This document shows positions 9,905-59,880 of a stretch of DNA of 64,000 nt, piece after piece. This stretch comes from Acholoe squamosa (Eukaryota > Annelida > Polychaeta > Phyllodocida > Polynoidae): contig OX439036.1 of the NCBI GenBank assembly GCA_949317995.1, forward strand, positions 5,139,207 to 5,203,206, read 5' to 3'. Both the position numbers and the translations under genes were made by a program. Position 1 is the stretch's first letter. The number at the start of each line of letters is the position of its first letter. Below the pieces are notes generated by a model, which did not search any database, had not been told where the DNA came from, and was given only the letters and a program-made list of their open reading frames with translations.

Positions 9905-10270
9905 CAGGAGGGTGTTGCTCCTATGGTAAAAAGAGCTGTCAGTCGGTACCCTCATTTCAAAAGAAGCCGAGCACTGCTTCACCTAAGTACTTGCACTCAC
10001 CACATTAGTCTGAAAAGTAACCTGCCTTGTTTAAAATAGAGAGAGCTGCACTATCAGGTACCTACTCATGTCACACACTCTATAGTTTATTATACTGACT
10101 GACTTGTCCCAACTAGGTACCTACTCAAATCTCCCGTTTTTAGCACCATACTTGAATGACCACTTGTGAGCAACAAAAGGGACAGGTTATAGCTACATGA
10201 AAAGAAAGGACTGGAAATGAGGGCATTTTTAGCCAGCTCTTCCTTTTACTATAGGAGCAACCCCCTCCTG
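9905..10270 (+). mobile_element. TIR MITE, CAGGAGGGTGTTGCTCC family, copy 2
   Basis: Duplicate of copy 1 within the 630-bp tandem repeat, differing by only a few bases. Confidence 0.8.
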
Positions 10271-10411
10271 GTTTCTCCTGGTGACTTGTCACTCTCCTGC
10301 CAGACTCCGGTTTTAGTTAAATACATATATGTGCCTCTGCCATAACCTTCCTTTCCTCCTGGTAGGTACCCACCATCCTTCCATACATTAGTTATATAGT
10401 GTCATACATGT

Positions 10412-29235: not shown

Positions 29236-29741
29236 AGATGTGTTTACGCACCTGTTGTATCTATAGTCTCTCTGTAGAATCCCCTATAGAGTCTAATGGA
29301 GCTCTCCTGTCTGTTCACTTACTATACCAATTTAGATCAGGTTTTAAGTTTGGTCTCTTTTGATGTCATTGGTAATCTTAAATAGAACAATAGAACAAAT
29401 AGACAAAAACCACAAGAATTTGGACAAATCCAGGCATATAAAATTTTATATCACGTGGCACACTCTTCTTTTATCCTAGCACCTTGGGTGGGTATCTTAG
29501 CACAGTAAAATTCATGTAGGGTATTTCTCAACACTTCCAAGGACTCCTATATGTGTCTTCCTTGTGGCTCTTTCCTAAATGAAAAATAACCTAGCTTTAT
29601 CATCATAACCACAAGATATTGTGGCAGAGGACGTGTGCCCCTGAATATTTGCTATGCAGTGCTTGGGGACATGGTCCTGCATCGGGTAGAAAGTCCATCA
29701 CGATGATGTAGTCAAGAAAGAGTCTTGGTTGTTTATAAGCA

Positions 29742-29968
29742 GTGTAGGGGTCGGCGGAAAACGTCTTTGGAGAAACCAGGATTCGAACCCGGGACCCTCC
29801 AACTTCGAAGCGGAAGGCTCTTCCTCTGAGGTACTTCCCCTGACCTGACGTTCTCTACCTTCCACCTACGCATGGATCGGTGTGTTACCAATAGGGAACA
29901 TGTGACTACCCGGTGACCCGCTCCTTCAGGTCGGCCATCGGGGCACGGGAAATCATGTTCCCCTACAC
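29742..29968 (-). repeat. Downstream LTR of the TRIM-like element
   Basis: 227-bp repeat. Its tRNA-like segment is slightly more decayed than the upstream one: an extra G after the D arm and a mismatch in the D stem. Confidence 0.8.
29768..29840 (-). tRNA. tRNA-like sequence inside the downstream TRIM LTR
   Basis: 73-nt counterpart of the upstream copy. The 3' acceptor strand and T loop are kept, but there is a wobble in the T stem, a D-stem mismatch and a 1-nt insertion before the anticodon stem. Probably a decayed copy. Confidence 0.55.
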
Positions 29969-29980
29969 AGCCCCCAACCA
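29969..29980 (-). other. G-rich tract before the downstream TRIM LTR
   Basis: The minus strand reads TGGTTGGGGGCT next to the LTR, in the position of a polypurine tract and similar in composition to that of the Gypsy element. Confidence 0.45.
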
Positions 29981-30177
29981 GCTTCGACCACCGCTGACCA
30001 GCAACCCGGCTCTCCTCCCAACCAGACAATTGGGCTTTATTAAGCAGTGCGAGGCATTCCCGATTCCCTGGTCAACTGCCGGTACAAGTACCGGGCGGTC
30101 GAAGCGCTTGCCGTATCACACCAACCCAGGGACCGAGTTCCATAGCCCCCCCCCCCGTCACGCGGGTCAGGACTACT

Positions 30178-30191
30178 CGGTTTCTCCACCA
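30178..30191 (-). other. Primer-binding site of the TRIM-like element
   Basis: Directly after the upstream LTR the minus strand reads TGGTGGAGAAACCG. This is the exact complement of CGGTTTCTCC-A-CCA, the 3' end the LTR-encoded tRNA-like sequence would have after CCA addition. The plus-strand match is 14 nt, followed by one mismatch. Confidence 0.7.
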
Positions 30192-30416
30192 GTGTAGGGT
30201 CGGCGGAAAACATCTTTGGAGAAACCGGGATTCGAACCCGGGACACTCCAACTTCAAAGTGGAAGCTCTTCCTCTGAGCTACTTCCCCTGACCGGACGTT
30301 CTCTACCTTCCACCTACGCATGGATCGGTGTGATACTGATAGGGAACATGTGACTACCCGGTGACCCGCCCCTGCGGGTCGGCCATCCGGGCACAGGAAA
30401 TCATGTTCCCCTACAC
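30192..30416 (-). repeat. Upstream LTR of the TRIM-like element
   Basis: 225-bp repeat, about 90% identical by eye to the downstream copy (differences include one G indel in the tRNA-like part). It carries a complete tRNA-like cloverleaf. Confidence 0.8.
30217..30288 (-). tRNA. tRNA-like gene inside the upstream TRIM LTR
   Basis: 72 nt that fold as a standard cloverleaf. Acceptor GGGGAAG pairs with TTTCTCC using two wobbles. The D stem is GCTC/GAGC and the anticodon stem has four of five pairs. The loop TTTGAAG puts TGA at 34-36. The variable loop is 5 nt, the T arm is CCGGG TTCGAAT CCCGG, and the discriminator is A. Box A TAGCTCAGAGG and box B GGTTCGAATCC match Pol III consensus. The short variable arm does not fit a normal tRNA-Ser, so I do not assign an isotype; the acceptor recalls tRNA-Ala. 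It may be a primer precursor rather than a decoding tRNA. Confidence 0.65.
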
Positions 30417-30421
30417 AAGCA

Positions 30422-42828: not shown

Positions 42829-43145
42829 GGCTGAGAGTGTAGTACATGAAATGGTTGTTTACATGTGGGCTGACTGTGAGTAGTACATGAAATGGTTATT
42901 CACTGGTGGGTTGACTGTGAGTAGTACATGAAATGGTTATTCACTGGTGGGTTGACTGTGAGTAGCACATGAAATGGTTATTCACTGGTGGGTTGACTGT
43001 GAGTAGTACATAAAATGGTTATTCACTGGTAGGTTGACTGTGAGTAGCACATGAAATGGTTATTCACTGGTGGGTTGCCTGTGAGTAGCACATGAAATGG
43101 TTTTTCACTGGTGGGCCGACTGTGTAGAACATGAAATGGTTATTC
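42829..43145. repeat. 41-bp minisatellite, left array
   Basis: About 7.5 units of GGTTATTCACTGGTGGGTTG then ACTGTGAGTAGCACATGAAAT. Units vary at several positions (AGTACATG, AGCACATG). Confidence 0.9.
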
Positions 43146-44626
43146 GGTCTAAAATCACAGAAGGTGTGCAAATGGAAATTTTGGTGAAAGTCAGCCCCCT
43201 ACACTTAGGATTTTGATTTTTCCCCAATTTTTTTTGGGTCATATTTTTGGGTTCAATGAGTTCTTGATGTTATACATGGGTTTTAGTGGTCCAATATCAA
43301 TATTGTTCGCTCCAGGGGGTTGAACATACCTAAAATTGACCCCTTTCAGCTCAGAAAATCAATAAAATCGACAGATTTCATCATTTTTTGTAGAATGCGG
43401 ACTAGGTATGTGTCTGTCCACTTTTATTATGTAAATTATAGAGTCTTGTGGTGAAATGGGAGCAAAAATTATGTTCCTGGTCAGATTTTTTCTATTCTTC
43501 TGAAGCATTTTACTTTTTGTAAAGTGGTCTGTCTGGGCGATAATTTGGTCATTTGGCCTCCCCCCATTAAATACCTAAAAGTGAAATGGGTTCAATTATG
43601 CCTTAAAAGATTTGCTACATGTTGGGGGTAAAGTTTGTTGAAAACAAAATTTGATTTCCTCCATAAACTTCACTGTGAGGGGGCAATGAGGGATTTTCCT
43701 TGAAAATATCCAAACTATGCCTGTTATTTACCCCCTACATATACCTAAGTACTCAATGTATGGGACAATTGATTGCTACTAAACCTTTGCAGTATCAGGG
43801 ATGGGAAGTGCTTTTTTGTCCAGGTGAAATTGTGTCCGGGCGAGTGACCATTGAGTAACATGCCATGTTGAGGATTTGGTTTTCTACAGAAATAATCATT
43901 TCATCTCATTGAAAATCACAGATCTGGACCATCTTGAGCATTAAATGATGGAATTCATATTCCTATCTGTGTCAGCTGATTCCTTGCTATCATAAAATGA
44001 GCCTACTTTTAATGGAATTTGATCACAATTCTGAACATAATGTCCAGGCGAGTGATGAACTACAAGGTATTTTGAACAGAAATTACAGATCTTTTTCCCC
44101 ATCAAAACTATGTACCACCTGAAAGTATATGCCATGGGCATTGTATTCCATATAATCAATAGTTCCTACCATAGTCTGTTCAGCTTTTATATAGAACAGA
44201 AAGAAATGAATATCTTAGAATCTGAGATTTACTTGAATTTCAGGCCAGGCCCTATAGGAAAATGACCTGAGGGAAAGGCAAAAACCTATTACGTCTGACT
44301 ACAATACTCCAAACCCAACCATTAGACCCAGTAATACAAGCAAAATCATAATAACAGTGGACCAGAAGCATATCATAGGTCATTTTCAATCAATAAAGGG
44401 AAAATACCCCGAATGGTCACTCGGGAGGACATCGTTTCCAGGTAGATAGGTTCTGGGCATTGCCATAGCAACAGTTTTCATATTTAACTCATAATTTGTC
44501 ATGTGCAGTTACCCCAAGACCTATACACTATACACAAAAAATACTTTTGAGATACTACATAATTTTTTCTCAGACCTCTCAAAGCTCCACCAAAGCCTAT
44601 TTGCACACTTTCTATGATTTTTGACC
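43146..44626. mobile_element. 1.48-kb TIR transposon inserted in the minisatellite
   Basis: The ends match inverted over at least 26 bp with three differences: GGTCTAAAATCACAGAAGGT and GGTCAAAAATCATAGAAAGT, both continuing GTGCAAAT. The 4-bp duplication ATTC (43142-43145 and 44627-44630) falls inside the 41-bp unit, which continues across the insertion. No ORF over 75 codons, so it is non-autonomous. GAGTGACCATT and its inverted copy, and GTCC.GGCGAGTGA words, recur inside. I do not recognise the superfamily. Confidence 0.85.
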
Positions 44627-45060
44627 ATTCACTGGTGGGATTGCTGTGAGTAGCACATGAAAGGGTTATTCACTGGTAGGTTGACTGTGAGTAGAACATG
44701 AAATGGTTATTCACTGGTGGGTTGACTGTGAGTAGAACATGAAAGGGTTATTCACTGGTAGGTTGACTGTGAGTAGAACATGAAATGGTTATTCACTGGT
44801 AGGTTGACTGTGAGTAGAACATGAAATGGTTATTCACTGGTAGGTTGACTGTGAGTAGAACATGAAATGGTTATTCACTGGTAGGTTGACTGTGAGTAGA
44901 ACATGAAATGGTTATTCACTGGTAGGTTGACTGTGAGTAGAACATGAAATGGTTATTCACTGGTAGGTTGACTGTGAGTAGAACATGAAATGGTTATTCA
45001 CTGGTGGGTTGACTGTGAGTAGAACATGAAATGGTTATTCACTGGTGGGTTGACTGTGAG
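44627..45060. repeat. 41-bp minisatellite, right array
   Basis: About 10.5 units, several in a row identical, nearly all with the AGAACATG variant and GGTAGG. More homogeneous than the left array. Confidence 0.92.
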
Positions 45061-46437
45061 TATTTCCATAACTTATTGTGAAGCTGATGCCTACCCATCA
45101 AAAACATAATATCATCGCCTTTCAGTGCTTCTTGCCACAAGATGCATCTGATGGAGAGTTTAAAATTTAAAGGGTTATGGGTTATATGAAGTCCTGTGAC
45201 CTTACAAAATGACTGGTTGAGACACAATCAGTCTACAACAGACAAGGAGATCCAGGGCAGATCATGGAAGGTGATACCGAGAAGCTACAGGCAGAGGGTG
45301 CAGAGGAGGTGATAACAAATTGGTTCAATACCGAACTAAATCTAACAGTGGCTGTCAATATGGCTCTAAACCTAACAAGTTCTGTCTGTATGGGCACAGC
45401 GTGTCCTCCCGTCATGCCCCGCTACACTTACACCGTTGGGCACTGGAGGAGAAAGTCAAACACGACCCAGAAGTAGATCACACCATGCACCAGTCACCAC
45501 CAGGGGGCCCATTGATCCTCACCTCTAGTTCTACTTGCTGACACCAAGGGTGTCAAGGTCAGGGTAGTCTGTTACAGTCTACATACTGTAATTAAGGACA
45601 TGCCAGCCCAAGATGGCCCCAGCTGGCTAACATAAAAGATGTTGTAAGAGGTTGATTCAGTGGTACAGATTGACTAGATAATGGAGATAAAAGGTGTCCT
45701 TTCACCAAGTGAGTACGGAATCCAGACACACAGTACTTAAGCCATCTTATTAAACTATAGGGAATTCGGTTAACCAGTCATGCCTTTGTTGGTCCATAGG
45801 CACCGAAGATACATGGGTCCTCACCCATGGGCATTCACCATATTATCCTGTATATATAAGCGTCAGGTCTTGAATTAGAACCAGTCTTGAATGAGCACAT
45901 GGGAGCACATGGGTATTGACATTTCAATATAGAATACGCTATTCTAGCATCATGGTATGAGATGGTAATCATTAGCTCAGCCCTATGAATCTGCACAATG
46001 CTCAACCTGTCAAATCCCCACTATAAAGGAGGGAATGAATTAGATGTCGGATGGCTATTTCGCATTAATCTAATCTATTTGCTTCATTTTAATTAGCGGA
46101 GGTATCCTCTGCATTGAAGTAGGTAAAGTGGCTCATGACCAGCTCTAGTACCTTCCTCCAAATCTCATCACACACCCTCTTAATATTCCTACACAAAATG
46201 TAGTCCCTGAGGCCAGTTTTAATTCCAAGCCCATCCATATCCCTGCAGCGTATCTAAATATTCAAATAATTCAATGAATGATAGGCTAGCTATTTCATTC
46301 AAACCATCAAATGAACAAATTAGCCTGTTCACATTATGCATGGAATGTTCGATGTTGAGTTGTGAGTGGGGAAGAGGGATATTCTAAGCACCATGGTGAG
46401 TGCACCTGTTGAGATGACGCAAAGGTCTTTGACTTTA
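45061..46437. other. No gene recognised
   Basis: No repeat or gene signal I can support. Confidence 0.4.
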
Positions 46438-46969: not shown

Positions 46970-47033
46970 TGCTCTTAAATTTTAAATGGCTGATGCACTT
47001 TTTGGATGAATTGCTGATGAGTCTCAATTGGTG
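46970..47033. mobile_element. Left half of a piggyBac-like MITE split by the Gypsy element
   Basis: Contains TTTTAAATGGCTGATGCACT and ends AGTCTCAATTGGTG. Joined to 59885-59930 (CATCATGATGACCATAGGGT and GATGCACTGCAGCATC) it reproduces the family order. Confidence 0.55.
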
Positions 47034-47397
47034 TGTAATGGTTCGTATTGACTTATATGTTGGGTGGCTCTTTGGCTCGCTTACCACTAGATGTACCAAC
47101 ACAACACGAGTAGTTCGGGTTGGGCAAAGCCCCAGAAACCCCTACCTCTCGGGTAGGACTTTATTCAATCTCTCTGATGACAAAGTATTAGCGTCTGGAC
47201 TGGACCATGTCCAGTCCCCTTCTGCCGCTCGTCCGGCTCCTTAGTAGGAGCTGGACGCGAGGCATGGTGCTGCCCCCTCTTGTACCAACGAGGTATCGCA
47301 AAGCGACACCTAGCTAGCATAGAAGGAACAAGCACCACACGAACACGTCTCTCGGATGAACGGCACTAATATATATACAATGATGCCGGCCCCTACA
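47034..47397 (-). repeat. 3' LTR of the Gypsy element
   Basis: Second copy of the 364-bp LTR, identical to the 5' copy as far as I can read. It should supply the polyadenylation signal for the genomic RNA. Confidence 0.95.
47160..47165 (-). terminator. Polyadenylation signal AATAAA in the 3' LTR
   Basis: AATAAA on the minus strand in the context TTGAATAAAGTCC, about 230 bp into the LTR. The copy at 59643-59648 in the 5' LTR would have to be bypassed for full-length RNA to be made. Confidence 0.6.
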
Positions 47398-47410
47398 CCA
47401 CCCCCACTAG
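47398..47410 (-). other. Polypurine-like tract next to the 3' LTR
   Basis: The minus strand reads CTAGTGGGGGTGG directly before the 3' LTR, where plus-strand DNA synthesis would be primed. It is G-rich rather than a pure purine run. A near copy lies at the gag-pol junction. Confidence 0.6.
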
Positions 47411-48151
47411 ACTTTACCTAGGGTTGTGTGTAATTAACAAGTAACTATTGTTGACTTTATACAGTGGTGTTATAAATAAATAGGTAAGTCTATATATACA
47501 CAGTTCGTATTAAATATAGAACATTTAAGGGGCATTATAAGTTATATGTACACAATAAGGCATCATCGTATATAACCCGAAGTGTTTATAAATAATAACA
47601 AAAATAGGAAGTGGCCCCTTATGGACCATCGACCTATGGTGATAATATTACACGTGTGTTATTATTAAACATGAGACGCGACGAAGAATATTCGATGTGT
47701 AGTAAGGTGATATTGAAAAATTTTTACAATGTTTTTACCGACCCGAGGTGGGGTAAATAACCCGAAAAAATTTTGACTTTTACTTACAAGAATATAATAT
47801 ACGATATAAAAAAAAATTTATACAAAATATGAAATATAGGTGTCCTACCAGGGTAGCAGGATCACCCTTACAATATACCGGACTTCCGGCGAACCTGGAA
47901 CGACTGGTTTCTGCAGCTCCATCCGGCGACATATGTGTGGTGGCAAACCACGTTGCTGTTATGATGTGCCCTGATGAAGATGGGAAGATGGAGACCCGGT
48001 TAGATGTTGTAGTCCATTGGGTGTTCGGGTTAGCGTCCATCCTCGCTGCAGGTTACGATCCAGGTATCAGGAGTCCAGCGTAAGGAACAGTGCCTCTGGC
48101 ATATTAAATGCATTTACCCTCGGGTACCAGGAGACACCAACAGATGGACAC
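47411..48151 (-). other. Non-coding tail of the Gypsy element
   Basis: 740 bp between the ORF3 stop and the G-rich tract, AT-rich toward the LTR. It holds one short minus-strand ORF (48040-47780, 86 codons) whose last ~22 residues are strongly hydrophobic. Nothing else supports it as a gene. Confidence 0.6.
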
Positions 48152-51100
48152 TCAAAGATCTTCAGGATCTGTGTCCATCTTCTCAGCCGGCTCAACTGAG
48201 GCAGATGGAGCCGAGCTGCTACAGCTGCTCGTAGAGAGCGCCGCTGAAGCCTCGCTGGGAGTCTCGCTCCCCAAGCTCAAGGCCCTCATCACTGCGGACG
48301 GGCTGTCCATTGCCTCGGATGCTGGTGCAGCAACCGTGGCAGTTGGGACAGCCCGGTTCCAAGTGGGGGGCGGGAGCAAGAGAGCTGCCGGAATCGGCGG
48401 AGCAGCCGGGACCGGTGAAGTGGCCAGGACCGGTGGAGTAGCCGGGGCTGGCGGGGCATCCGGGGGTATCTCTGGAACGAAGATGAGAGACGACGGTAAG
48501 CCGTCCCACTCCTCCAGATGTTTCCCGAATGCCAAGAAAAACTTGAGGTCCGCCTCCTTAAATCGATGGATATATCTGGAGTTTTCAGCTTCGTGAAACT
48601 CTTTAAGCTTTTCGGCTTCCTTCTGTTTTCGCCGGCAGGACTCGAGGGCCTCCTCGACCTTCTTCCTTTCCAGCTCCCTGATTTTATCTTCCTCCCGCCT
48701 CTGGATCTCGTAGACCAGATTGACGGTGGCTTCAGTCATCACACGCCAGTAGTCAACAGACTTCTGGCGGTGCAATGCCTGCCATTCTTCCATCAGCTCA
48801 TTCTGGATCTGAACCGTTCGGACATCGCGGTGGTCGACGAACGTGTTCGGATCCTGAAGACCTGACAGGGTACCGGAGATTAGTTCCATTAGGGGTACCC
48901 GAGGACCTGTTGGTGGAACTATCACTGGTGGTGGCGCTGGGGCCTCCACTGAGACAGGCGGGGTGCCTGTTGGAGGAGCAGACGGGCCCTCTACCGTGAT
49001 GCCTCCTCGGCCTCGGCCACCACCCGGAGAGCCTCGGGTGGACTCCAGCCCACCGCGGCCCCTACCACGAGCTTTGGCCCGGCCCAAGGGGGTAAGGACC
49101 TGCGACTCGGGTCCAGCCGGTCCCATTGAAGGGAACTTCGCCGCGTACTCACTGTACGTGGGGCGTTTGCCGGAGGATCCCTCTCCAGCCCACCAAGTAG
49201 AATACCCGGATGGGGGAGCGAGCAGTTCGCCCCCATCATCCTGGCCGCCAGAGGCTTCGCCCGGGCGTTGTTCCGCGGGTGCAGGTGTGGAGGTGGCTGG
49301 AGTCGCCGATGCGGTCGCCTGGCTACCCGACCTGCGGGCCTGGTTGCCAGGCATCTCCAGAGCCGAGACCTGTTGTCCCGACTCGCGACGATCAGCTGGA
49401 TTGGCTGGTCTGGGCTGGTCCTTGCCACCCGAAGGGCTCACGGACCGGTCTGCTCGGGTCCTCTTGGAAGCAGTAGTCGTGACTGTGCCTCCGTTTGGAC
49501 CTTTAGAGCGGGCTTTGGCCTTCTCTCGCTTGTCGTCTCCTCGCCACTTTTTCACCTTCAGGTGCACCTCGCTGGGCATCCCGAATTTTGTGGACGAGGA
49601 GTTCGTCTGGAAGTAAGTCAGCAAGTTGCCGCTCTTCCACGAGCAGAATCCGGTCTCGAATGCCTGCTCTTTCACTTCCTTGATGCTCAGCGCGGACCAA
49701 TTTGCAAGGAGCTCGCTGAAGCACTTGATGGCTCGTTTCCTGGTCTTCTCCAGGCCGATGCCATGGGCCTTCTGCAAATGCAGAGCCATGTCTCGGCGCC
49801 GGTGAGTGCTGAACGAGCCATCACAATGTTTACTCGGGCGGTCCCCGAGCACACACATCATCACAGGCTTGTGATGCATATGAAATTCAACGATGTGTCG
49901 AGCGAAGCGGGGCTTCGTCTCGAACATCTTCTCACCCGTGAGAGACAGCTGGCAAGACTCAAACGGGCACCTTCGGCGGTTGCCGGTTGGTCCCCATTGG
50001 GTCATTGCCCACTGGACTTTCGTCCGGGCCTCGTAGCTGTAGATCGAGCCTAATTTGGACTTGAGCTGGTCAATCCAAATCAGGTAGAACTTGCCTACTG
50101 GCGTATCCGAGGGGCCGGACTTCATCCACTCCTCGTCATCGCTGTCACCGTCCTTATTGACGGCGCTCGGACACATATAATGGACTGTGTCGTAAGCACA
50201 GTCCGCGAAGCAGCGGGGAGTCCGTTCCTTGAACCCCTCGGCTGCATTCTTCCACATCCACTTCTGATTGTCGTCCTTGGGAACATCCGTGGTCATTTCT
50301 TCCCACGTTGTCACGGACTCCAAATCAGATTTGGCAGACTCGGGCAGCTCTGGATCGCTTTCGCTTTCCTCGCTGTCCGTGTATATGTCAGCTCCCCTAC
50401 GGCCGGCTCGGCTGGAGGTGGTAGTACCAGTCGGAGCCTTGGTAGGGGACTTCGTCTTTGCACCCGACGTGCTGGCTGCAGAAGATGCAGTAACCGAGGT
50501 GGCTACCGTGGTGGTTGTAGTGGTGGGAGCGGGCGTCTTCGGTTTGCCCTTACCCCTCGGCTTGGTGGGGGGCGTGGGCTCTACCGGAGACGCTTTCGCT
50601 CCATTCTTCTTCTTCCGGCGCACAACCTTAGTCGGTTGGGCCGGAACTTCGGGACTGGAATCCGACTCGCGTCGGCTCCTGTCCCCTGTCCGAGGGCTCC
50701 TCCTTCCGCTGACTGGGGAGTCAGAGTCGGAAGAGATCTCTGTTTTTCGTTGGGCCTGCTGCTTGCGATGGGCCCGGCGAGCTGCGGTGAGCTCCTTCTG
50801 CTGCTTGGCAAGCTCGATTCGCTTTGCCTCTACAGCAGCCTGCTGGCGTGAGATGTCCTCTTCAGAGATCTCGCCAGGTGCCTCTGGGATGTCGGCAGCT
50901 GGGTCGGTCTCGGTCGTGGACCTCTCGACGGCGATGCGGACATCTTCAGCCTCCAGGTCGCTCTCAGTGAGAGGACCCTTGGGTGCAGGTTTACGGGTCA
51001 ATCGCTTGACCCGGTCGGTTTCCACCGACGACAAGGTTACCGTGGAGTCTGTATCCATGTCGGATTCGGACTCCCTTAACTCCGTGGCCTTCTGGATGAT

Positions 51101-51658
51101 GCCCGCAGAGATCAAGACGGCTCGAGCTAAATTCTCGTTAGTCGCCATATTCTCCGCCAACTTTAGGTAGTTGCGGAGCCAAGAAACTGGCATGTTGTCA
51201 GCCAGCTCGTCACTACACGAGTCCATTACCATAGTTTTGAGTTCATCTGGTATGGGCTCGGGCACGCCCTGCTCCACCGCCATGGGCCCGCATCCGAACA
51301 TGGAGGCGTGCATAGGGATGTACGTACCCCAGGAGGTATACACGATACCTTCCTGGCGATCGACGTGTGCTAGACGTCTGATCTGCGTCCTGAATCCCGG
51401 AGGATACATTGGAATGTCCAGGACATCCACTTTGCTACCCGAAGCGTCTGTTGTTGACGGGCGCTCCGGGCGTGGCGGGGGTGGAGGTGGCATCCTCTCC
51501 CGGTCGGTTGCCTCGGCCATAGCCGTGAGCGTCCGGGCGGCCTCCTCTGTCGAAGAATCCATAGATTCCTCGACCCGAGACGGGACCTTCGGGTCCTCGT
51601 CTTGTTCCAACGGAATGTTGGCTGTTTGACGCGCAGCGTCAATCGTTCCCTGTGCCAT
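48152..51658 (-). CDS. ORF3: zinc-finger/coiled-coil protein in env position
   Basis: 1168 residues from the AUG at 51658, chosen over the upstream TTG because it sits in GCCATGG, a strong Kozak context. It starts about 520 nt after the pol stop, where env lies in retroviruses, but I see no signal peptide, transmembrane segment or furin site. Numbered from this AUG: a Pro run near 57-62; a moderately ordered block at 75-190; a long acidic and basic Ser/Thr/Pro-rich region at 190-455; an ordered block at 460-680 with two C2H2-like fingers (C564, C569, H588, H593; C602, C612, H627, H632); an RG/RGG-rich stretch at 861-886; a coiled coil at about 980-1030; and a Pro/Ala/Ser-rich tail. This suggests a nucleic-acid-binding, intracellular protein. 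I do not recognise the family. Expression probably requires a spliced subgenomic RNA. Confidence 0.85.
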   Translation of the reverse strand: MAQGTIDAARQTANIPLEQDEDPKVPSRVEESMDSSTEEAARTLTAMAEATDRERMPPPPPPRPERPSTTDASGSKVDVLDIPMYPPGFRTQIRRLAHVDRQEGIVYTSWGTYIPMHASMFGCGPMAVEQGVPEPIPDELKTMVMDSCSDELADNMPVSWLRNYLKLAENMATNENLARAVLISAGIIQKATELRESESDMDTDSTVTLSSVETDRVKRLTRKPAPKGPLTESDLEAEDVRIAVERSTTETDPAADIPEAPGEISEEDISRQQAAVEAKRIELAKQQKELTAARRAHRKQQAQRKTEISSDSDSPVSGRRSPRTGDRSRRESDSSPEVPAQPTKVVRRKKKNGAKASPVEPTPPTKPRGKGKPKTPAPTTTTTTVATSVTASSAASTSGAKTKSPTKAPTGTTTSSRAGRRGADIYTDSEESESDPELPESAKSDLESVTTWEEMTTDVPKDDNQKWMWKNAAEGFKERTPRCFADCAYDTVHYMCPSAVNKDGDSDDEEWMKSGPSDTPVGKFYLIWIDQLKSKLGSIYSYEARTKVQWAMTQWGPTGNRRRCPFESCQLSLTGEKMFETKPRFARHIVEFHMHHKPVMMCVLGDRPSKHCDGSFSTHRRRDMALHLQKAHGIGLEKTRKRAIKCFSELLANWSALSIKEVKEQAFETGFCSWKSGNLLTYFQTNSSSTKFGMPSEVHLKVKKWRGDDKREKAKARSKGPNGGTVTTTASKRTRADRSVSPSGGKDQPRPANPADRRESGQQVSALEMPGNQARRSGSQATASATPATSTPAPAEQRPGEASGGQDDGGELLAPPSGYSTWWAGEGSSGKRPTYSEYAAKFPSMGPAGPESQVLTPLGRAKARGRGRGGLESTRGSPGGGRGRGGITVEGPSAPPTGTPPVSVEAPAPPPVIVPPTGPRVPLMELISGTLSGLQDPNTFVDHRDVRTVQIQNELMEEWQALHRQKSVDYWRVMTEATVNLVYEIQRREEDKIRELERKKVEEALESCRRKQKEAEKLKEFHEAENSRYIHRFKEADLKFFLAFGKHLEEWDGLPSSLIFVPEIPPDAPPAPATPPVLATSPVPAAPPIPAALLLPPPTWNRAVPTATVAAPASEAMDSPSAVMRALSLGSETPSEASAALSTSSCSSSAPSASVEPAEKMDTDPEDL

Positions 51659-52178
51659 GGCACCGGGTTCGACTTCCAAAATTAATTGGCAAGTTTTGTT
51701 GGACTCCTCCCGAAGGATTCGTCCAACAGAAAGGCTTTTGGGGGGTTAGCTAGGCTAACACGACAGCTACAGGCTGTATAACCGCCGACAAATAACTAGA
51801 GCAAAAACGGGTGGCGTCTAACCACCACGAGTCCGCTCTAGTTATGACCAGTATGACGTCAGACCTCTCGTCTCGCGAGATCCCGCCATGGCTATCCGGT
51901 GACCTAGTTCCGCGCTTTCCCGCCACACCAGCAGCGCCACCTAGGGAACTAGATCCGAACCAACATTCGACTCGACATGTGAGACGCGGCCTACTACCCG
52001 AGTGCTATCGTCTGGAGCTTAGCGGTGTATACAACGCTTCAAAGCGAATGTACCGGTTAATCCGACCGCCACTCACGGGATACAGCCACCCGGGGAGGGC
52101 GCGTTCGACATCTCAGGCCGTGGAACGTATGTTGCCTGCCTATGGCGGACAACACGCAGCAGCTCGTTGTGTACTGAG
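51659..52178 (-). other. Spacer between pol and ORF3
   Basis: About 520 bp without a credible minus-strand ORF. Just upstream of ORF3 the minus strand reads GCTAACCCCCCAAAAG, which could serve as branch point, pyrimidine tract and 3' splice acceptor for a subgenomic ORF3 message. This is inferred from motif only. Confidence 0.4.
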
Positions 52179-55100
52179 TTAGGTTACAGCAGACCTCAAC
52201 CGGGGGCTGCGTCTAACGCCTTCGGTTAGCATTTTATTTTTCCCGGCTTTACGTACGGCCTTTTCTGGATCTCGCTTAGTCAGAGCGGGACCCTTCCCAT
52301 ACGTAATGCCTTCACTCAGCGAGACTTTCTTCCATTTCTTACGATTAGGTCGTTTCCTGGCCTTCGTCTTCTTTTTTACTATAACCTCGTCTCCCGGCGT
52401 CTTTCTCGGCCGGCCTCTAGGGCGTTTCGTCGGTACTACCACGCTCGGTCCGCTAGGGACAGATTCAGGTGGTTTGTAACCGAACTCCCTCTCCGCCTCT
52501 TCGCGCCCCTTCCAGGGCCGAAGTTTTCCGACATTTGTCTTCCATTTCCTACCCGTCAGGCAGTCCTCTATCATCACCGTGGACTCGGAGATGACGCGAA
52601 CGATTTTAAATGGACCTTCCCAAGGCGTTACGAGCTTCAGCTTATCCAGCGGCTCGTAGTACCTTAGTACTTTGTCCCCAACATTAAAACGAATTCGTTT
52701 AGCATTGGTGTCATAGCCCACCTTCTGCCACTTCGCACTCTTCAGCAGTTCTTTCCGAACGGCCTCGTATGCCTGTTTGAACCGGTCCCTTAATGACTCT
52801 ACAAACAGCACCGTGCAGGGCGCCTCCGGGTCTATTCCAACCACTCCATACACTAAGTCGGCGGGCATTATGATGTCCTCGCCGAACACTAGCATGTTTG
52901 GGGTGCAGTTAGTTGATGAATGGACAGTGTTGTTGTAGGCATGTACTACAAACTCGCACTGTTCATCCCAGTCATCCTGGTGGGTATTAACCAGGGGCTT
53001 TAGTACTTGTATGAGGGTTCTATTGAAGCGTTCTACCTGCCCATCCGACTGTGGTCGGTACGGGTTTGTTCGGGTCTTACAAATGGCTAGGTAATGGCAC
53101 ATTTCCTGCCAAAGTTCTGACTCGAACTCCCTTCCCTGGTCGCTGTGCATCATAAGGGGAACACCCAAATGCAGCACCCAGCCTTTCACAAATGCCTCCG
53201 CGCATGTGGCGGCTTTGTGGTTGGGAAGGGGGAACACCCGAGTGTACTTAGTATAATAGTCAGTTACGACCATCATACAAGTATTGTCTCGCGGCGTCGT
53301 CTTAATCCCACTGATGATGTCTATCGCTATTCGAGCAAATCTGACACCAAACAATTCCTGTGATAAGGGTTGCTTACCCAGGCCGGGTCCCGGTTTGTTT
53401 TTACAACAATCCGGGCAAGTGGCGATCCACCGGAGCAGGTCGCCTCTCATACCGGGCCAGTAGTAACGCCTTTGTAGACGCTCTATCGACCTTCTCTTAC
53501 CGAAATGGCCACTCGTTTGGTGGCCATGGCAATAATACATGATATCCCTCCTCATCGGGGCGGGTATCACTATTTGCAACAGCCTACCGTTGGTGGGAGT
53601 TGTCTTCCACCTACATAGTATGCCGTCTCGGATCTCTAGCTCGGCCCATTGAGCCAGCAACCGCCTCGCTTCCCTATCCTCCAGGGAAACTAGAGGCCTT
53701 GCCGGTTTAATGCCTGACCGTAGGTATTCCATTATGCGCGCAGTGGTGGGGTCTGACTGTTGAAACTTCTTGATGGTCTCCGGGGACCAATCGAGATAGC
53801 TGCATACAGCCTCCTCCCAGGGGATACGGGGGGTGGTATAATTAAATACCAACCCGGCTACCACAGCATTGTGGGCCCCGCAGTCTTCACATGTGGCATT
53901 TTGGCACCTTCGGATAGGCCGTCTTGACAAGGCATCCGCATTGATGTGTTTAGCACCGGGTCGGTGCTCTATTTGTTTATGCTCTAATCCGAATTCGGAT
54001 AGGTGAGCTAACCAACGTCCAATCATCCCCTCGGCGTCCTTGAAGTTAAGGAGCCACCTAAGAGACGAATGGTCTGTTCTTAAAGTAAAGTCACTTCCCC
54101 AAAGGAAATGCTTAAACTTCTTCGTATACACCACCACAGCGAGGAGTTCTCGCTTGGTGGTACAATAATTTCGCTGTGTCTTGCTTAACGTGTTGCTAGC
54201 AAATGCTATTGGCACTTCGACTCCCTCTTGGACCTGAGAGAGAGCTGCCCCAATCGCATCATTGCTCGCATCGGTGTCTAAGATGAAATGTCCCTCGGGA
54301 GTGGGATATTTCAACACGGGTGTATTCCTAAATAAATCTTTTATTTTATTAAAAGACTCTTCTTGCTCGCTGGTCCATGGGAATGGGTCCCGTGCCCTAC
54401 CCGGGGTCCAGTGAGCTAAGCACTGCATGGGGAAGCTGACACGAGAGTAATTCGGTATGAAATCACGATAATAGGAACAAAATCCTAAAAATGATCTCAC
54501 CTCCTTAGCACTCGTGGGTCTTTCCCAATTTTCTACAGCTTCTAATTTTTCCGGATCCGCTCTTACCCCGTTAGGAGTAATGATCCTTCCCAAGTATGTA
54601 ATGGTTTTCTTAAACAAATTACATTTCTTGGGTTTAAGTTTAAGACCGTTTGATAGTATCCGGTCGAGGACTAATTGCAGATTTGCCAGGCATTCCTTGA
54701 ATGACTTGCCGAACACGACCACATCATCCAAGTAAACCAGGCATTTCTTCCACAAAAGGTCACTCAGTAAGGATTCCATCATGGCCTCGAATGTAGCGGG
54801 GGCGTTACACAATCCGAAGGGTAGGACATTATACTCAAACAGCCCCATATGACTGGAGAATGCTGTCTTCTCCTTGTCTTTGGGGTGCATTGGTATTTGC
54901 CAATATCCGGACTGTAAATCCAAGGTACAGAACCATTGGTTTCCGCCCAAGCTATCTAAAGTCTCGTCTATCCTTGGTAAAGGATACGAGTTCTTCTTTG
55001 TTATACCGTTCAATTTCCGGTAGTCGACACAAAAGCGGATTGTACCGTCTTTCTTAGTAGTCATACAAACAGGGCTGGACCAGGGACTCGAGCTAGGCAC

Positions 55101-56414
55101 GATTACCCCTAGGTCCAACTGTTTCTGTATTTGCTCTTCACAGATTAACTTCTTTTTAAGGGGAAGTCTACGATACGGGATTTTAAAAGGTTTCTCGCTG
55201 CCCACATCTATGGTGTGCAACACCTTATCGGATCTACCCACCGGGCCTCCTTCCCTACCAAAAGCACCTTCGTACTTTTGTAGAAGTCTCGCTAGGCAAT
55301 CCTTATCGTCCGTATTCTTTAAATCTGACTGATCAATCAGCTTTTGGAATTCTTCATCCATAGGATGCTGACTAACTGGGTTTAGTGGTTTGTTAAATTT
55401 AGCCTCGGCGACATGTTCTACCGAACTCATCCTTCCAACACTGTCGCCTCGCCTCAAATAAACCACTGAACCACTTCGGTTAGTTATGGGTAATACGGAC
55501 CAAGCTGCATTAGCCACTAATGTATCCACTGAGTCTAACCCGATGCTTGACAAATACACCGTGTCGGGTTCGTAGACTCCAGCTTCATTCCTCTGAGCCA
55601 TGGATCCGCCACAAAGGACATCGCAAGTGGTACCCGGTGGGATCTTCACCGTATGTACCACTGCTGCGACCGAAGACACCTGTCTCAATACGCATTGGAC
55701 ATGCAAGCCATACGGGCTCCGTATATCCATACTACCGTCCCTCGGGTCCAAGACGGCCCCGTATAAGCTTGCAAAATCCAATCCGAGGATTCCGTCATCA
55801 CTAACCTCTGCTATAGTTGGCGAAAGAACAAACTCTTTGCCTCCTATATGGATAGGCATAAACGTCCTACCAAATGTACGCATACTGCTTCCGTCGGCCG
55901 TGCAAGCATTTACCCCCGTTTTGAGGTTCTCATGGCTGCCGGCCACCGAATCGAAGAATCTTTTGGACACACATGAATGACTAGCTCCAGTATCCACCAA
56001 GAATTCCCCTACCCGGCCTTCCACAGATATGGGTACATACCACCGTCTCCCCCCTAAAGGCGAGGGGTTACTGGTAAACTGGTGAAAGTCTCCCGAATCA
56101 CCAAGATTCAATCCGAGTCCTCTCAGGAATTCCAGACACGGATGACTTGGGGGAAGGCGTGTCCCACACACTCGAATCAACTCTTTGATCCATCCTTCCT
56201 CTCCCCTAGTGCGGCCACTCGCCTCCATATGATCACTCCTGCACATATCAACACTAGGGTCCCTGGCCCCGGCCGAGGTGCAGGGGTGCGCACCCTCAGC
56301 CACCCGGCCTCCAGGTGTAATTGACTCGAAATCTTCCACCGGGATACCCCCGGTAGCATTTTGGCATTCGTTCCCACTCGGGGCCATGTCAGATGCCGTT
56401 GACACAACCCCCAC
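52179..56414 (-). CDS. pol: Pol polyprotein: protease, RT, RNase H, integrase
   Basis: 1411 residues, uninterrupted. Aspartic protease motif DTGAS at 141-145. RT has LDLQSGYWQI at 498-507, LPFGLCNAPATF at 531-542 and the catalytic YLDD at 561-564. RNase H has DTDAS at 713-717, E756, D781 and a later Asp in the NADALS motif. Integrase has an HHCC zinc domain (H963 or H965, H970, C1000, C1003) and a DD35E core of D1032, D1092 and E1128, followed by a GPF motif (WEGPFKI near 1275). No chromodomain is visible. The tail is very basic and holds an AT-hook-like RPRGRPRK near 1331, which might guide targeting or nuclear entry. Residues 1-120 match nothing I know. Expression probably needs a -1 frameshift from gag. 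All catalytic residues are present, so the protein should be functional. Confidence 0.97.
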   Translation of the reverse strand: MGVVSTASDMAPSGNECQNATGGIPVEDFESITPGGRVAEGAHPCTSAGARDPSVDMCRSDHMEASGRTRGEEGWIKELIRVCGTRLPPSHPCLEFLRGLGLNLGDSGDFHQFTSNPSPLGGRRWYVPISVEGRVGEFLVDTGASHSCVSKRFFDSVAGSHENLKTGVNACTADGSSMRTFGRTFMPIHIGGKEFVLSPTIAEVSDDGILGLDFASLYGAVLDPRDGSMDIRSPYGLHVQCVLRQVSSVAAVVHTVKIPPGTTCDVLCGGSMAQRNEAGVYEPDTVYLSSIGLDSVDTLVANAAWSVLPITNRSGSVVYLRRGDSVGRMSSVEHVAEAKFNKPLNPVSQHPMDEEFQKLIDQSDLKNTDDKDCLARLLQKYEGAFGREGGPVGRSDKVLHTIDVGSEKPFKIPYRRLPLKKKLICEEQIQKQLDLGVIVPSSSPWSSPVCMTTKKDGTIRFCVDYRKLNGITKKNSYPLPRIDETLDSLGGNQWFCTLDLQSGYWQIPMHPKDKEKTAFSSHMGLFEYNVLPFGLCNAPATFEAMMESLLSDLLWKKCLVYLDDVVVFGKSFKECLANLQLVLDRILSNGLKLKPKKCNLFKKTITYLGRIITPNGVRADPEKLEAVENWERPTSAKEVRSFLGFCSYYRDFIPNYSRVSFPMQCLAHWTPGRARDPFPWTSEQEESFNKIKDLFRNTPVLKYPTPEGHFILDTDASNDAIGAALSQVQEGVEVPIAFASNTLSKTQRNYCTTKRELLAVVVYTKKFKHFLWGSDFTLRTDHSSLRWLLNFKDAEGMIGRWLAHLSEFGLEHKQIEHRPGAKHINADALSRRPIRRCQNATCEDCGAHNAVVAGLVFNYTTPRIPWEEAVCSYLDWSPETIKKFQQSDPTTARIMEYLRSGIKPARPLVSLEDREARRLLAQWAELEIRDGILCRWKTTPTNGRLLQIVIPAPMRRDIMYYCHGHQTSGHFGKRRSIERLQRRYYWPGMRGDLLRWIATCPDCCKNKPGPGLGKQPLSQELFGVRFARIAIDIISGIKTTPRDNTCMMVVTDYYTKYTRVFPLPNHKAATCAEAFVKGWVLHLGVPLMMHSDQGREFESELWQEMCHYLAICKTRTNPYRPQSDGQVERFNRTLIQVLKPLVNTHQDDWDEQCEFVVHAYNNTVHSSTNCTPNMLVFGEDIIMPADLVYGVVGIDPEAPCTVLFVESLRDRFKQAYEAVRKELLKSAKWQKVGYDTNAKRIRFNVGDKVLRYYEPLDKLKLVTPWEGPFKIVRVISESTVMIEDCLTGRKWKTNVGKLRPWKGREEAEREFGYKPPESVPSGPSVVVPTKRPRGRPRKTPGDEVIVKKKTKARKRPNRKKWKKVSLSEGITYGKGPALTKRDPEKAVRKAGKNKMLTEGVRRSPRLRSAVT

Positions 56415-59400
56415 TAGTTTTCCACATCTGTGGAATCCCTAGCATTCTCCCTTTCTACGCCGTCGTCTTCGGCTTCATAGAAGGCAGCCATTACCGGCTT
56501 AGTAGCGGTACATTCAGATGAGTAGTGTCCCATGCGCTGGCACCTGAAACACTTAACCGTTCGGCGATCCACCCGGGGTCTTTGCCGATTGGCTTGGATG
56601 GCATCTGTAATTTTCTTACACATGTCTTCCAGAAGTTTGGTCATGTCCGGGGACTGAATCTTCACTTTGTCAGTGCTTACAATGGACTTGACCGCCTTAT
56701 CGACAGCCTTCGGGTCACTCTTGACCTCGGATGAAGGTCTAGAGTCCCTTTGTTTATTGAAAGATTTCCTGGGAATATACTTCCTACCTGAAGTATTCTT
56801 CCTTAATTGCATCGAACAGAAGGTGCCGTCTTCCTGTTCGATATCAATCAATTCGAAGTCGTCTGATGGAGTATCGACCTCCGACTGCTGGGTCACCGAT
56901 GCTAGGGGTACCAAGCCGCTGGCATTAGGTATGTCCCCAGCTAACATAGCTCGCTTCTTCACGGCCATATCTATACCATTAAAAATGCCGTGTAGTGTTA
57001 TGCCCTCCTTCCAGGCGTCCCTCGCTGCTATTTGTTCATCTCGGTCTCTTAGACCCTTGACGAATTGAGTGATCAAATCGTCCATATACCAGTCCTGGTT
57101 TTCAGTACCGGGTCTGGCCTTACTTAGCAGGGCATGGAGTTCCATACCGTATGCTCTGAAAGCTTCATTCGGCTTCTGTGTGCGTTTCTTAAAACGGACC
57201 ATCGGGTCTTCCTTGACCATATTACATAACAGTCCACTAGCAGTTTCTACTAACTGCTCAAAACTCCCAACGAGGCCGTACCAGGTTCGCCATTGCTCTA
57301 CAGCCATGCGACCCGGCCCGCCTTTCAGACATCTCACCAGATGTGGCTTGGCCTCGTATGGGGTCCATCCATTACAGTTCATCACATCGATGAAATCTTC
57401 AAACCACTCTTTCCATGGTCGAGTACCGTCATATTCTTTAGGAATAACGGCTACCCTTCGGGCAGAATTGGGAGCATACATCAATCTAGTGCATTGCTGT
57501 TTGCTCCATTCAATCGCCTTGGTTTCATTCAAGGTCCGATTGCCCCCTATACCACCGAAGCTAGAATTGCCAGGTGGAGGCGGTGGTGGAGGTTGAGTAT
57601 ACGTCCACTGTGTACCACCGTGGTTCGTATAACTCGCACTACCTTGGTTGGGGCCGGTACCCGAGGTACCACTATGGCTTGTGGCACCCGAAGCAGCGCC
57701 CCCCCCTTGCGCGCCTTGGTACCCGCCATCGGATGGCTGGTTTCCCGTTGACTGGCCGCCATCGTTTGATGGATTCGGTTGGGTGTTGTCATTACCAGCA
57801 CCCAGCCCCGGGTCGTTACTAGGATCCACATGAATGTGGAACCCACTGGTCTCCGCACTACTGTCGGAAGCCTCTCTAGGGGTATAGTCCGGGTCCAGGT
57901 TGTGGACTATGGGCACCTCACTTATCCGGACTCTACTAGTTCGGCCATGCTTATCCTGGGTTCTGATGTAAACACCCCCTTGATCTACGTTCCGCGAAGC
58001 ATTATCATTTACAAAAGGATTATACTGCGGATTCTTCGGTGTAGAACAGGAGACCGGGTCGCCCTGTTTCACGAACGTCGAGTTCGGGTTTATCACCCTA
58101 CTCGCCGGAGGGGCATGTGTTTCCTCTTGCTCCTGTAAATAACTCTCCATAGTGGACTTATTTATTGTGAGGGTAGCTACGTCTGTAGTCAGGTTTCGCT
58201 GTTCCTCCCTAAGCTGTGCGTTTTCTGCCAAGATTTCGGATCGAATCTTTTCATTTTCAGCCACAGCTCGGTTTCTTTCTTCTTGGGCGATCATTGCCTC
58301 TCGCTTAAAAGTATCCTTAAGTAGGCGGTACTTTTCACCCTTCTCTTTCTGAGACCTGTTATATTCAGTAGTCTCCTTCCTAATCTCGGCTTGTTCCGAG
58401 ACCATCTTGGCTTCTGTCTCAGCTTTCCGGAGTTGAAGTTTCTTAAGCTTCTCCTCCATTGCGTGCAACTCAGTTTGTAATTTATTTACATCCCGAGCCT
58501 TAGCAACCTCCTCGGCTCTAGCCTTGTCGATTGCTCTAAGTTTATTGGCTTCCTCGATTTCCAACTCAGCCAGCCTCTTTTCTTTTTCCTGTGCGTCTCT
58601 TTCCTTCCGCTCCAACCGATGGGATACGGAGGATAGACGATATTTGAGGTCGGATTCTTTTAGAATCGCCTCCTGCTCCACGGATCGTAATTTTCCGATC
58701 CGGGACTTAGCTTCCTCCTCTATTTTGGATTGGGCTAACATGAATTGTTCATGTTGCCTCTTTGCCTGTAACTCTACCTGTTCCTTGGCTTTCAAATAGG
58801 CCTGAGTATTTTTATACCCGGGACCCATCCGACGTCCGTAGATAGACTTGCGATTGCCTCCAGGGTAAAACATGGAGTCAGACAAGCCTTCGTCTAGAGA
58901 TCGGCCTAGGTGATGCCTTTCCGAGCTTTTCGGTCCGGTACCACTAGGCTTATCTTTTGATTTCGCGTCTGGGACTATTGCGTCCCTTTTGGTTTTACCA
59001 TCGTCGCTGTCATGATCCGACGATGTCATTAGTGGGGCTACTTCGGTTCCACCACCGGGTGCTGAACCCTGGGGGGTTGCAGTACGCTGCATAGGGCTTT
59101 GTGCAATTGGTGTACCCAAGCCGCTAGCCGAGCCTGTTGGTACCATAGGACCTAGCTGGCGTCTGCTAGTTATAACTTGGGACCAATCGCTCAAGTCTAA
59201 AGTTGGGGGTCTTAACACTCCCCTGAACAATCCGGTATCCGGTACTCCTGTCTGGGGTGTAGCCGGATACAATTTTACGATGCCATCTCTGGTGGCATTG
59301 TCCCTAAGGTCGGGTGTAGAAAAAATATTTCGTACACCCTCCTGATTAAACATTTGTTGTTGACCGGGTTTCCAGTCTAACAACAGATGCTGGGATGTGT

Positions 59401-59473
59401 AATCATCCTCTTCGAATCCCTCTAGCCCAGGGCTGGGGGGATCCGTTTCGGGTTTCCCGAGGCTTTCGGCCAA
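56414..59473 (-). CDS. gag: Gag polyprotein with long coiled coil
   Basis: 1019 residues as listed. Gag forms the particle and binds genomic RNA. Residues 1-200 are low complexity. Residues about 221-450 are highly charged with heptad-like Glu, Lys and Leu spacing, a clear long coiled coil. Residues 455-670 are Gly/Asn/Ser/Pro-rich with a proline run near 628. Residues about 672-845 look like a Ty3/Gypsy capsid (retrotrans_gag type), with Trp-rich stretches around 687-731. A CX2CX4HX4C zinc knuckle sits at C975, C978, H983 and C988. Most Gypsy Gags are 300-500 residues, so this one is roughly doubled by the N-terminal coiled coil. The listed first codon is TTG; the frame has no AUG before residue 41 and stays open upstream through the primer site into the LTR (to 59563). 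The real start is therefore uncertain: non-AUG, AUG41 or a spliced leader. Confidence 0.93.
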   Translation of the reverse strand: MAESLGKPETDPPSPGLEGFEEDDYTSQHLLLDWKPGQQQMFNQEGVRNIFSTPDLRDNATRDGIVKLYPATPQTGVPDTGLFRGVLRPPTLDLSDWSQVITSRRQLGPMVPTGSASGLGTPIAQSPMQRTATPQGSAPGGGTEVAPLMTSSDHDSDDGKTKRDAIVPDAKSKDKPSGTGPKSSERHHLGRSLDEGLSDSMFYPGGNRKSIYGRRMGPGYKNTQAYLKAKEQVELQAKRQHEQFMLAQSKIEEEAKSRIGKLRSVEQEAILKESDLKYRLSSVSHRLERKERDAQEKEKRLAELEIEEANKLRAIDKARAEEVAKARDVNKLQTELHAMEEKLKKLQLRKAETEAKMVSEQAEIRKETTEYNRSQKEKGEKYRLLKDTFKREAMIAQEERNRAVAENEKIRSEILAENAQLREEQRNLTTDVATLTINKSTMESYLQEQEETHAPPASRVINPNSTFVKQGDPVSCSTPKNPQYNPFVNDNASRNVDQGGVYIRTQDKHGRTSRVRISEVPIVHNLDPDYTPREASDSSAETSGFHIHVDPSNDPGLGAGNDNTQPNPSNDGGQSTGNQPSDGGYQGAQGGGAASGATSHSGTSGTGPNQGSASYTNHGGTQWTYTQPPPPPPPGNSSFGGIGGNRTLNETKAIEWSKQQCTRLMYAPNSARRVAVIPKEYDGTRPWKEWFEDFIDVMNCNGWTPYEAKPHLVRCLKGGPGRMAVEQWRTWYGLVGSFEQLVETASGLLCNMVKEDPMVRFKKRTQKPNEAFRAYGMELHALLSKARPGTENQDWYMDDLITQFVKGLRDRDEQIAARDAWKEGITLHGIFNGIDMAVKKRAMLAGDIPNASGLVPLASVTQQSEVDTPSDDFELIDIEQEDGTFCSMQLRKNTSGRKYIPRKSFNKQRDSRPSSEVKSDPKAVDKAVKSIVSTDKVKIQSPDMTKLLEDMCKKITDAIQANRQRPRVDRRTVKCFRCQRMGHYSSECTATKPVMAAFYEAEDDGVERENARDSTDVEN
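56417..56423 (-). promoter_or_regulatory. Candidate -1 frameshift site at the gag stop
   Basis: The minus strand reads GGAAAAC immediately before the gag stop TAG (56416-56414). Pol lies in the -1 frame and is open back to 56438, giving about 25 nt of overlap with no pol AUG in it. The heptamer has a good A-site (AAC to AAA) but does not fit X XXY YYZ perfectly at the P-site. Termination-reinitiation is possible but less likely, because the overlapping codon is GTG. Confidence 0.5.
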
Positions 59474-59503
59474 TGTGGCCGCGCACCACCCCCGAACCGA
59501 CTG

Positions 59504-59515
59504 GTCACGGCACCA
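59504..59515 (-). other. Primer-binding site, tRNA-His
   Basis: One base inside the 5' LTR the minus strand reads TGGTGCCGTGAC. This is complementary to the 3' end, including CCA, of a typical animal tRNA-His, whose acceptor strand ends GTCACGGCA. I matched it from memory of the tRNA sequence; the match stops after 12 nt. Confidence 0.8.
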
Positions 59516-59516
59516 G

Positions 59517-59880
59517 TGTAATGGTTCGTATTGACTTATATGTTGGGTGGCTCTTTGGCTCGCTTACCACTAGATGTACCAACACAACACGAGTAGTTCG
59601 GGTTGGGCAAAGCCCCAGAAACCCCTACCTCTCGGGTAGGACTTTATTCAATCTCTCTGATGACAAAGTATTAGCGTCTGGACTGGACCATGTCCAGTCC
59701 CCTTCTGCCGCTCGTCCGGCTCCTTAGTAGGAGCTGGACGCGAGGCATGGTGCTGCCCCCTCTTGTACCAACGAGGTATCGCAAAGCGACACCTAGCTAG
59801 CATAGAAGGAACAAGCACCACACGAACACGTCTCTCGGATGAACGGCACTAATATATATACAATGATGCCGGCCCCTACA
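59517..59880 (-). repeat. 5' LTR of the Gypsy element
   Basis: This 364-bp repeat starts TGTAGGGG and ends TTACA on the minus strand. It holds a TATATATA stretch only about 20 bp from its upstream end, a hairpin of GGACTGGAC and GTCCAGTCC around 59690, and an AATAAA at 59643-59648. Transcription probably starts a few tens of bases after the TATA stretch, which would leave a very short U3. Confidence 0.95.
59853..59860 (-). promoter_or_regulatory. Candidate TATA box in the 5' LTR
   Basis: TATATATA lies 20-28 bp inside the upstream edge of the LTR and is the only TATA-like stretch in it. The same site occurs in the 3' LTR near 47370-47377. Assignment is by motif and position only. Confidence 0.5.

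Follow-up and report, generated by a model that had tools for sequence, protein, structure and literature searches.

A TRIM family of the annelid Acholoe squamosa with an LTR-borne tRNA that probably serves as its own primer

For LTR retroelements with a tRNA-type primer site, the known source of the primer is a host tRNA, and in Tf1 the genomic RNA primes itself with its 5' end. Self-priming LTR elements of the Tf1 type are named in PMC6934838, the available part of which also describes bivalve TRIMs whose canonical primer site was not identifiable. Cassandra and Ajax are TRIMs with a 5S rRNA-derived sequence in the LTR, the primer site of Ajax being that of tRNA-Leu, and Helenus is a TRIM with a tRNA-like sequence in its LTRs, a tRNA-derived sequence in a TRIM LTR being the rule by which Helenus is named (Kojima 2024, PMC10886601). 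In the available portion of that paper, complementarity between the Helenus LTR tRNA and the primer site was sought and not found, the LTR tRNA is said not to contribute to initiation, and animal Helenus is moved by a Gypsy element. Among the open-licence PubMed Central papers listed by literature searches, none describes a tRNA primer encoded by the LTR element that uses it. Since a tRNA in a TRIM LTR has already been published for Helenus, only a self-encoded primer would be new in the element analysed here.

The closest relative of this element is Helenus: the family is Helenus by its anatomy and differs by its primer. The likeness takes in a short non-autonomous LTR element, an LTR tRNA with A and B boxes, a primer site, a putative polypurine tract (PPT) and, as in animal Helenus, 4-bp target duplications, which are present in 20 of 28 elements of this family but not in the copy studied. 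Unlike in Helenus as described in the available text, complementarity between LTR tRNA and primer site is exact here (14/14) and covaries over four types, and a conserved T-run follows the LTR tRNA at a distance of a few bases. A reading of the DNA made from sequence alone (the sequence-only reading) had put forward the 5S RNA of Cassandra as a precedent and passed over this closer one (PMC10886601). With Cassandra and Ajax the element shares the presence of Pol III gene-derived sequence in a TRIM LTR, but theirs is 5S rRNA and not tRNA, and the available part of that source describes no primer gene of their own for either. As in Tf1-type elements, reverse transcription would begin without a host tRNA; unlike in these, the putative primer is an LTR-encoded tRNA-like RNA, the site fitting a tRNA 3' end plus CCA. 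The bivalve elements are likewise animal TRIMs but differ in having, in the available description, no canonical primer site.

The element lies in a window of 64,000 nucleotides, the whole stretch of DNA that was analysed (assembly GCA_949317995.1, contig OX439036.1, positions 5,139,207 to 5,203,206). Its features, in window coordinates, are the following.

29742..30416, minus strand: whole TRIM-type non-autonomous LTR element, 675 bp
30192..30416, minus strand: 5' LTR, 225 bp, direct repeat
29742..29968, minus strand: 3' LTR, 227 bp, direct repeat, about 92.6% identical to the 5' LTR
30217..30288, minus strand: tRNA-Ala-like gene of the 5' LTR (ARAGORN; Rfam RF00005, 52.7 bits)
29768..29840, minus strand: tRNA-like gene of the 3' LTR, more decayed (ARAGORN; Rfam RF00005, 32.9 bits)
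30271..30281, minus strand: Pol III A box TAGCTCAGAGG of the 5' LTR tRNA, from sequence
30228..30238, minus strand: Pol III B box GGTTCGAATCC of the 5' LTR tRNA, from sequence
30207..30210, minus strand: TTTT Pol III terminator, 6 nt past tRNA position 73, from sequence
30178..30191, minus strand: primer-binding site TGGTGGAGAAACCG, complementary without mismatch to the LTR tRNA 3' end plus CCA
29969..29979, minus strand: putative PPT, purine-rich tract GGTTGGGGGCT adjoining the 3' LTR, by eye
30417..30421, no strand: flanking repeat AAGCA, right
29737..29741, no strand: flanking repeat AAGCA, left

The element is on the minus strand, so its 5' LTR is the right-hand repeat. The two direct repeats, separated by about 220 bp of internal sequence, bear out the TRIM-like element with LTRs of the sequence-only reading, as do ARAGORN and Rfam RF00005 its tRNA-like sequence, which both predict on the minus strand in each LTR. 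ARAGORN calls the anticodon of the 5' LTR tRNA as Ser-TGA, and the acceptor has G3:U70. The PPT string GGTTGGGGGCT also stands ahead of most 3' LTRs displayed for genomic copies. The exact 14-nt primer site that had been claimed holds for the 5' LTR and needs refinement elsewhere. The 5' LTR tRNA ends in the 11 bases CGGTTTCTCCA, and the primer site, lying directly behind the 5' LTR, complements CGGTTTCTCCA plus CCA; this CCA is not encoded in the LTR, the 5' LTR DNA reading TCTCCA-AAGATGTTTT, and its complement is found in the primer site only. The site matches the 5' LTR tRNA at 14/14 and the 3' LTR tRNA at 13/14, the single difference being C-to-T at a CpG. At up to two mismatches the 14-nt match recurs at one further site in the window, with two mismatches; the chance expectation for such matches in the window is 0.26, and two were reached in 2 of 100 shuffles.

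No second copy of the element was found within the window. The Rfam scan of the window returned two tRNA matches only at gathering score, and no 5S rRNA at that score, below which a shorter fragment is possible. Three further window reading frames lack a Pfam match. Long direct or tandem repeats occupy 9002-10403 and 42839-45062.

In the genome of 1.48 Gb in 63 contigs, a search with the LTR turned up 2,995 candidates at first look, and the 40 that were scored all stand at 94-100% identity. A general LTR/primer-site pattern finds 1,734 places (910 + 824), against 3 + 2 for the reversed control. The element thus belongs to a large multicopy family with the LTR-internal-LTR order, as the sequence-only reading supposed. 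Both ends could be parsed in 28 elements, 20 of which have an exact 4-bp target duplication together with TGTAG...CTACA ends (shuffle mean 0.97, maximum 5); such duplications and ends identify an LTR retrotransposon family with a 4-bp target duplication. The window copy is one of the eight without the exact duplication, and has a 5-bp AAGCA repeat offset by one base. The target duplication first read from the window is present on both sides as AAGCA, but this copy is an exception to the family's 4 bp. The element has no match in a phage collection. Among viral contigs, the tRNA-body pattern met two with tRNA arrays (26 and 17 tRNAs), which are unrelated, and an 18-nt LTR/primer-site pattern met three whose 60 bases on either side hold no LTR or tRNA and which were set down to chance.

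Does the LTR tRNA have the features of a Pol III gene? Among 110 LTR tRNAs (host gene L078 left out), 106 have the A box and 109 have TTTT at most 14 nt from position 73. A strict B box is present in 104 of them, which had been selected in part by a looser B-box pattern. When tRNA ends were picked by the U5 end alone, 152 of the 158 had TTTT, 137 an A box and 124 a strict B box. Given the internal boxes and the TTTT just past the tRNA, a transcript would end shortly after the tRNA. The LTR tRNAs carry G3:U70, the alanine identity pair, and alignment groups them with host tRNA-Ala; their anticodon region has drifted. The acceptor pair 6:67 co-varies, with GGGGAAG/TTTCTCC in 49 and GGGGATG/TGTCTCC in 47 of the 110. 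Folding predictions for five individual LTR tRNAs score barely better than shuffles (z -0.06 to -1.5). A genome-wide Rfam tRNA search gave 97,417 loose candidates, and all 63 that were scored are LTR tRNAs (30 in L037-L066, 32 in L142-L159 and L162-L175, and one in L118); high genomic tRNA counts can thus be element copies.

According to the sequence-only reading, primer and template would, if the case is real, be produced from one locus and co-evolve, and the copies in the genome speak to both. Of the 1,734 pattern places 100 were listed, all on contig C1, 27 with a site unlike the window's and 73 with an equal one; all 27 were fetched, as were the first 13 of the 73 and then 21 more. These C1 places, L006-L066 and the places from a separate 15-match primer-site pattern make up 100 distinct junctions, each kept only when its site lay at most three mismatches from the window's, with the tRNA end located by the T-run, independently of the primer site. 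Four main primer-site types account for 90 of the 100, the other 10 being rarer variants. The type of the site agrees with LTR tRNA positions 66-70 in 84 of the 90 main-type junctions and disagrees in six (5,000 shuffles: mean 33.9, maximum 49), a count over copies that share descent and are not independent, so that the covariation rests on four types and corresponds to about three independent co-changes. By type (site/tRNA), agreement is 47/49 for AAA/TTTCT, 21/23 for ACA/TGTCT, 5/7 for AACA/TGTTT and 11/11 for ATA/TATCT, and the LTR-tRNA 3' ends of the four types are CGGTTTCTCCA, CGGTGTCTCCA, CGGTGTTTCCA and CGGTATCTCCA. Over the 100 junctions the site matches its own tRNA at 14 nt in 53, at 13 in 36 and at 12 in 11; variation within a type at CpG sites was counted as ordinary decay and not as covariation. 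In normal copies the bases just past primer-site position 14 (AG) do not extend the tRNA match.

For one of these types the pairing was predicted before further copies were fetched. Prompted by an earlier copy (L105), the prediction was that sites TGGTGGAGATACCG go with the tRNA end CGGTATCTCCA, and all 10 newly fetched copies have TATCT at diagnostic positions 66-70. Over all 11 nt of the end, three of them agree exactly and seven differ at one or two positions, four of these seven lying in one local cluster. Four clustered ATA-type junctions at 15.685-15.713 Mb of contig C4 (L202-L205) have a common C-to-G at tRNA position 71 and are probably a local duplication. A second prediction made along with it, for sites TGGTGGAAATACCG, failed: the predicted tRNA was present in none of three, and they resemble single decayed sites. 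Junctions L054, L117, L120 and L123 bear the site of another type. The co-change of site and tRNA upholds the joint evolution of primer and template, but the few copies that point to another family's tRNA mean that the "own" primer is the family's pool of LTR tRNAs and not strictly one locus.

Some copies record longer contacts between site and tRNA. Lengthened primer sites that match the LTR tRNA further number 26 genome-wide (reversed pattern, 0), and all were fetched as stretches of at least 301 bases and their joints read. In five (L082, L083, L098, L183, L184) the match ends at 18-19 nt and internal sequence resumes, on two internal backgrounds; L049, outside the 26, has an exact 18-nt site of ACA type. 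Plus-strand copying of the HIV-1 tRNA primer mainly halts before m1A58, after 18 nt, according to the available part of PMC13191261. In 12 others the complement covers the tRNA in full and goes on into the LTR leader; three stretches read farther (L099, L100, L101) show it reaching the U3 start or internal sequence and forming inverted repeats; in the remaining nine the match ends elsewhere and other sequence follows. L100 (C3:60118300-60119700) is one insertion with the 4-bp duplication ATAG, its left half one family's LTR and its right half an inverted ACA-family LTR, joined at the primer site, and L241 is a similar inter-family joint. L086, L088, L090, L099, L101 and L187 each carry an LTR and, from the primer site on, a copy of that LTR in inverted orientation; several near-identical insertions of this kind at different places suggest that the inverted form either arises repeatedly or is mobile. 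L081, L185 and L188 are hybrids with inverted primer-site or tRNA sequence attached to U5, which template switches between primer site and LTR tRNA seem to have produced. The genome holds joints resembling strong-stop DNA linked to tRNA. Such fossil joints can arise either by the copying of a long primer RNA or by foldback of plus-strand DNA onto the LTR tRNA, and suggest contact between primer site and LTR tRNA as the element replicates.

The best explanation, and one we consider likely, is that the LTR-encoded tRNA primes the element, in cis or in trans. Each LTR holds a complete tRNA gene near the end of U5. From this gene Pol III would transcribe a short tRNA by way of the A and B boxes, with the TTTT as terminator. 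After normal processing and CCA addition, its 3' end would base-pair along 14 nt with the primer site that follows the 5' LTR, and the packaged and annealed LTR tRNA, supplied by the same copy or by another copy of the family pool, would be extended in trans by the reverse transcriptase of an autonomous, presumably Gypsy-like, LTR element. Since a new copy can take the sequence of its primer site from the primer tRNA, site and LTR tRNA would stay matched and change together.

Enzymes of this sort are present in the window itself, which makes their bearer a possible example of the kind of source the TRIM would use:

47033..59880, minus strand: autonomous Gypsy LTR retrotransposon with long open gag and pol frames

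Its 365-bp repeats are 100% identical and flanked by the 4-bp duplication GGTG, and it is probably a very young insertion. The gag frame has a zinc knuckle, the pol frame encodes protease, RT, RNase H and integrase, and no Pfam match is seen for a third frame, 1175 aa long. The LTR starts with TGTAGGGG. With the TRIM family it shares the one-base spacer before the primer site and a 4-bp duplication, but the primer site, which we take to be tRNA-His-like, is unlike that of the TRIM.

Could a few active copies do the priming for all? In this variant, which overlaps the best explanation, most primers are supplied in trans, by one active LTR copy or a few that serve all families, and most LTR tRNAs are passengers. 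The junctions with another type's site and the inter-family joints L100 and L241 speak for it, but disagreeing junctions are a minority (6/90) and four separate types have been kept; the variant is possible, and we lean against it. A stricter version of self-priming would make primer and template one molecule, the transcript being cut at the 3' end of its LTR tRNA and gaining CCA, so that its own 3' end pairs with the primer site. The element could then do without host tRNA and without any separate tRNA, and complements running from CCA through the tRNA into leader, U3 or internal sequence would be expected by-products; DNA foldback also explains these, and we consider single-molecule priming unlikely.

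Quite improbable, in our estimate, is a host tRNA-Ala as the primer, with the LTR tRNA an old tRNA-Ala copy (for instance a SINE that landed in the LTR) serving only as Pol III promoter and resembling the primer by ancestry. The Ala-like character of the LTR tRNAs, with their G3:U70, would be expected from it, and published animal Helenus families use host tRNAs, as the available part of PMC10886601 has it. A host tRNA-Ala pattern has 212 genomic matches (105 + 107), many within one array on contig C12. That contig holds, from about 51.451 Mb (L179), a dense tandem tRNA-Ala-AGC array of dozens of copies, mostly at a spacing of about 290-800 bp. Twenty host tRNA-Ala genes were read: 13 AGC, which end in CGGGTTCTCCA, four TGC and two CGC, which end in CGGCATCTCCA, and one CGC, which ends in CGGCGTCTCCA. 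None of the 20 fits any of the four site types exactly. The best fits, 13/14, are those of Ala-AGC to the AAA-type site and of the Ala-CGC gene L160 to the ACA-type site, and both favour a host primer; AACA-type sites reach at most 12/14 against the three host ends. Position 66 is G or C in 20/20 and T in none, whereas the sites require T, a mismatch that sites recopied from a host tRNA should lose. In a copy-by-copy comparison over 69 junctions, the LTR tRNA fits better than the best host Ala in 51, equally well in 14 and worse in four. A complement of the host end CATCTCC occurs in none of the 15 primer-site matches of a pattern able to catch that end. Against a host primer, too, stand the four site types that follow four LTR tRNA types in 84 of 90 junctions.

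The sequence-only reading had itself named a host tRNA gene with the same end as the rival source of the primer site. A genome-wide pattern for tRNAs with three of the LTR-type ends and without the usual T-run, which passes over T at trailer positions 8 or 9, other T loops and the TATCTCC end, found 62 places, and no clear non-LTR host tRNA gene is among them: in 29, tRNA-CCA runs into the U5 complement, and of the other 33, the 18 that were read all have short LTR leader motifs and 15 were judged by trailer only. No such rival was met, then, either there or among the 20 host tRNA-Ala genes.

Very improbable is the last reading, in which DNA events alone keep the match, the plus-strand primer-site end pairing with the LTR tRNA during second-strand transfer and copying it, with homogenisation as the result: the 12 of 26 lengthened sites that run through the tRNA into the leader, the inverted repeats of L099, L100 and L101, the single insertion L100 with its ATAG duplication and two joined families, and the hybrids of inverted primer site and tRNA end (L081, L188) would all fit, but such copying lengthens a site past base 14 and does not readily alter the covarying acceptor-stem bases, the complement of CCA has persisted even though no CCA follows the LTR tRNAs, and five sites end at 18-19 nt, where a modified tRNA, and not DNA, would halt copying.

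Priming by the LTR-encoded tRNA, as we prefer to read these matches, would set this family against the statement, in the available part of PMC10886601, that Helenus LTR tRNAs play no part in initiation. An LTR element with its own primer gene would be free of the control that the host exerts over tRNA primers. A primer gene borne in the LTR would also explain drift in primer choice, and would leave a readable record of the tRNA used.
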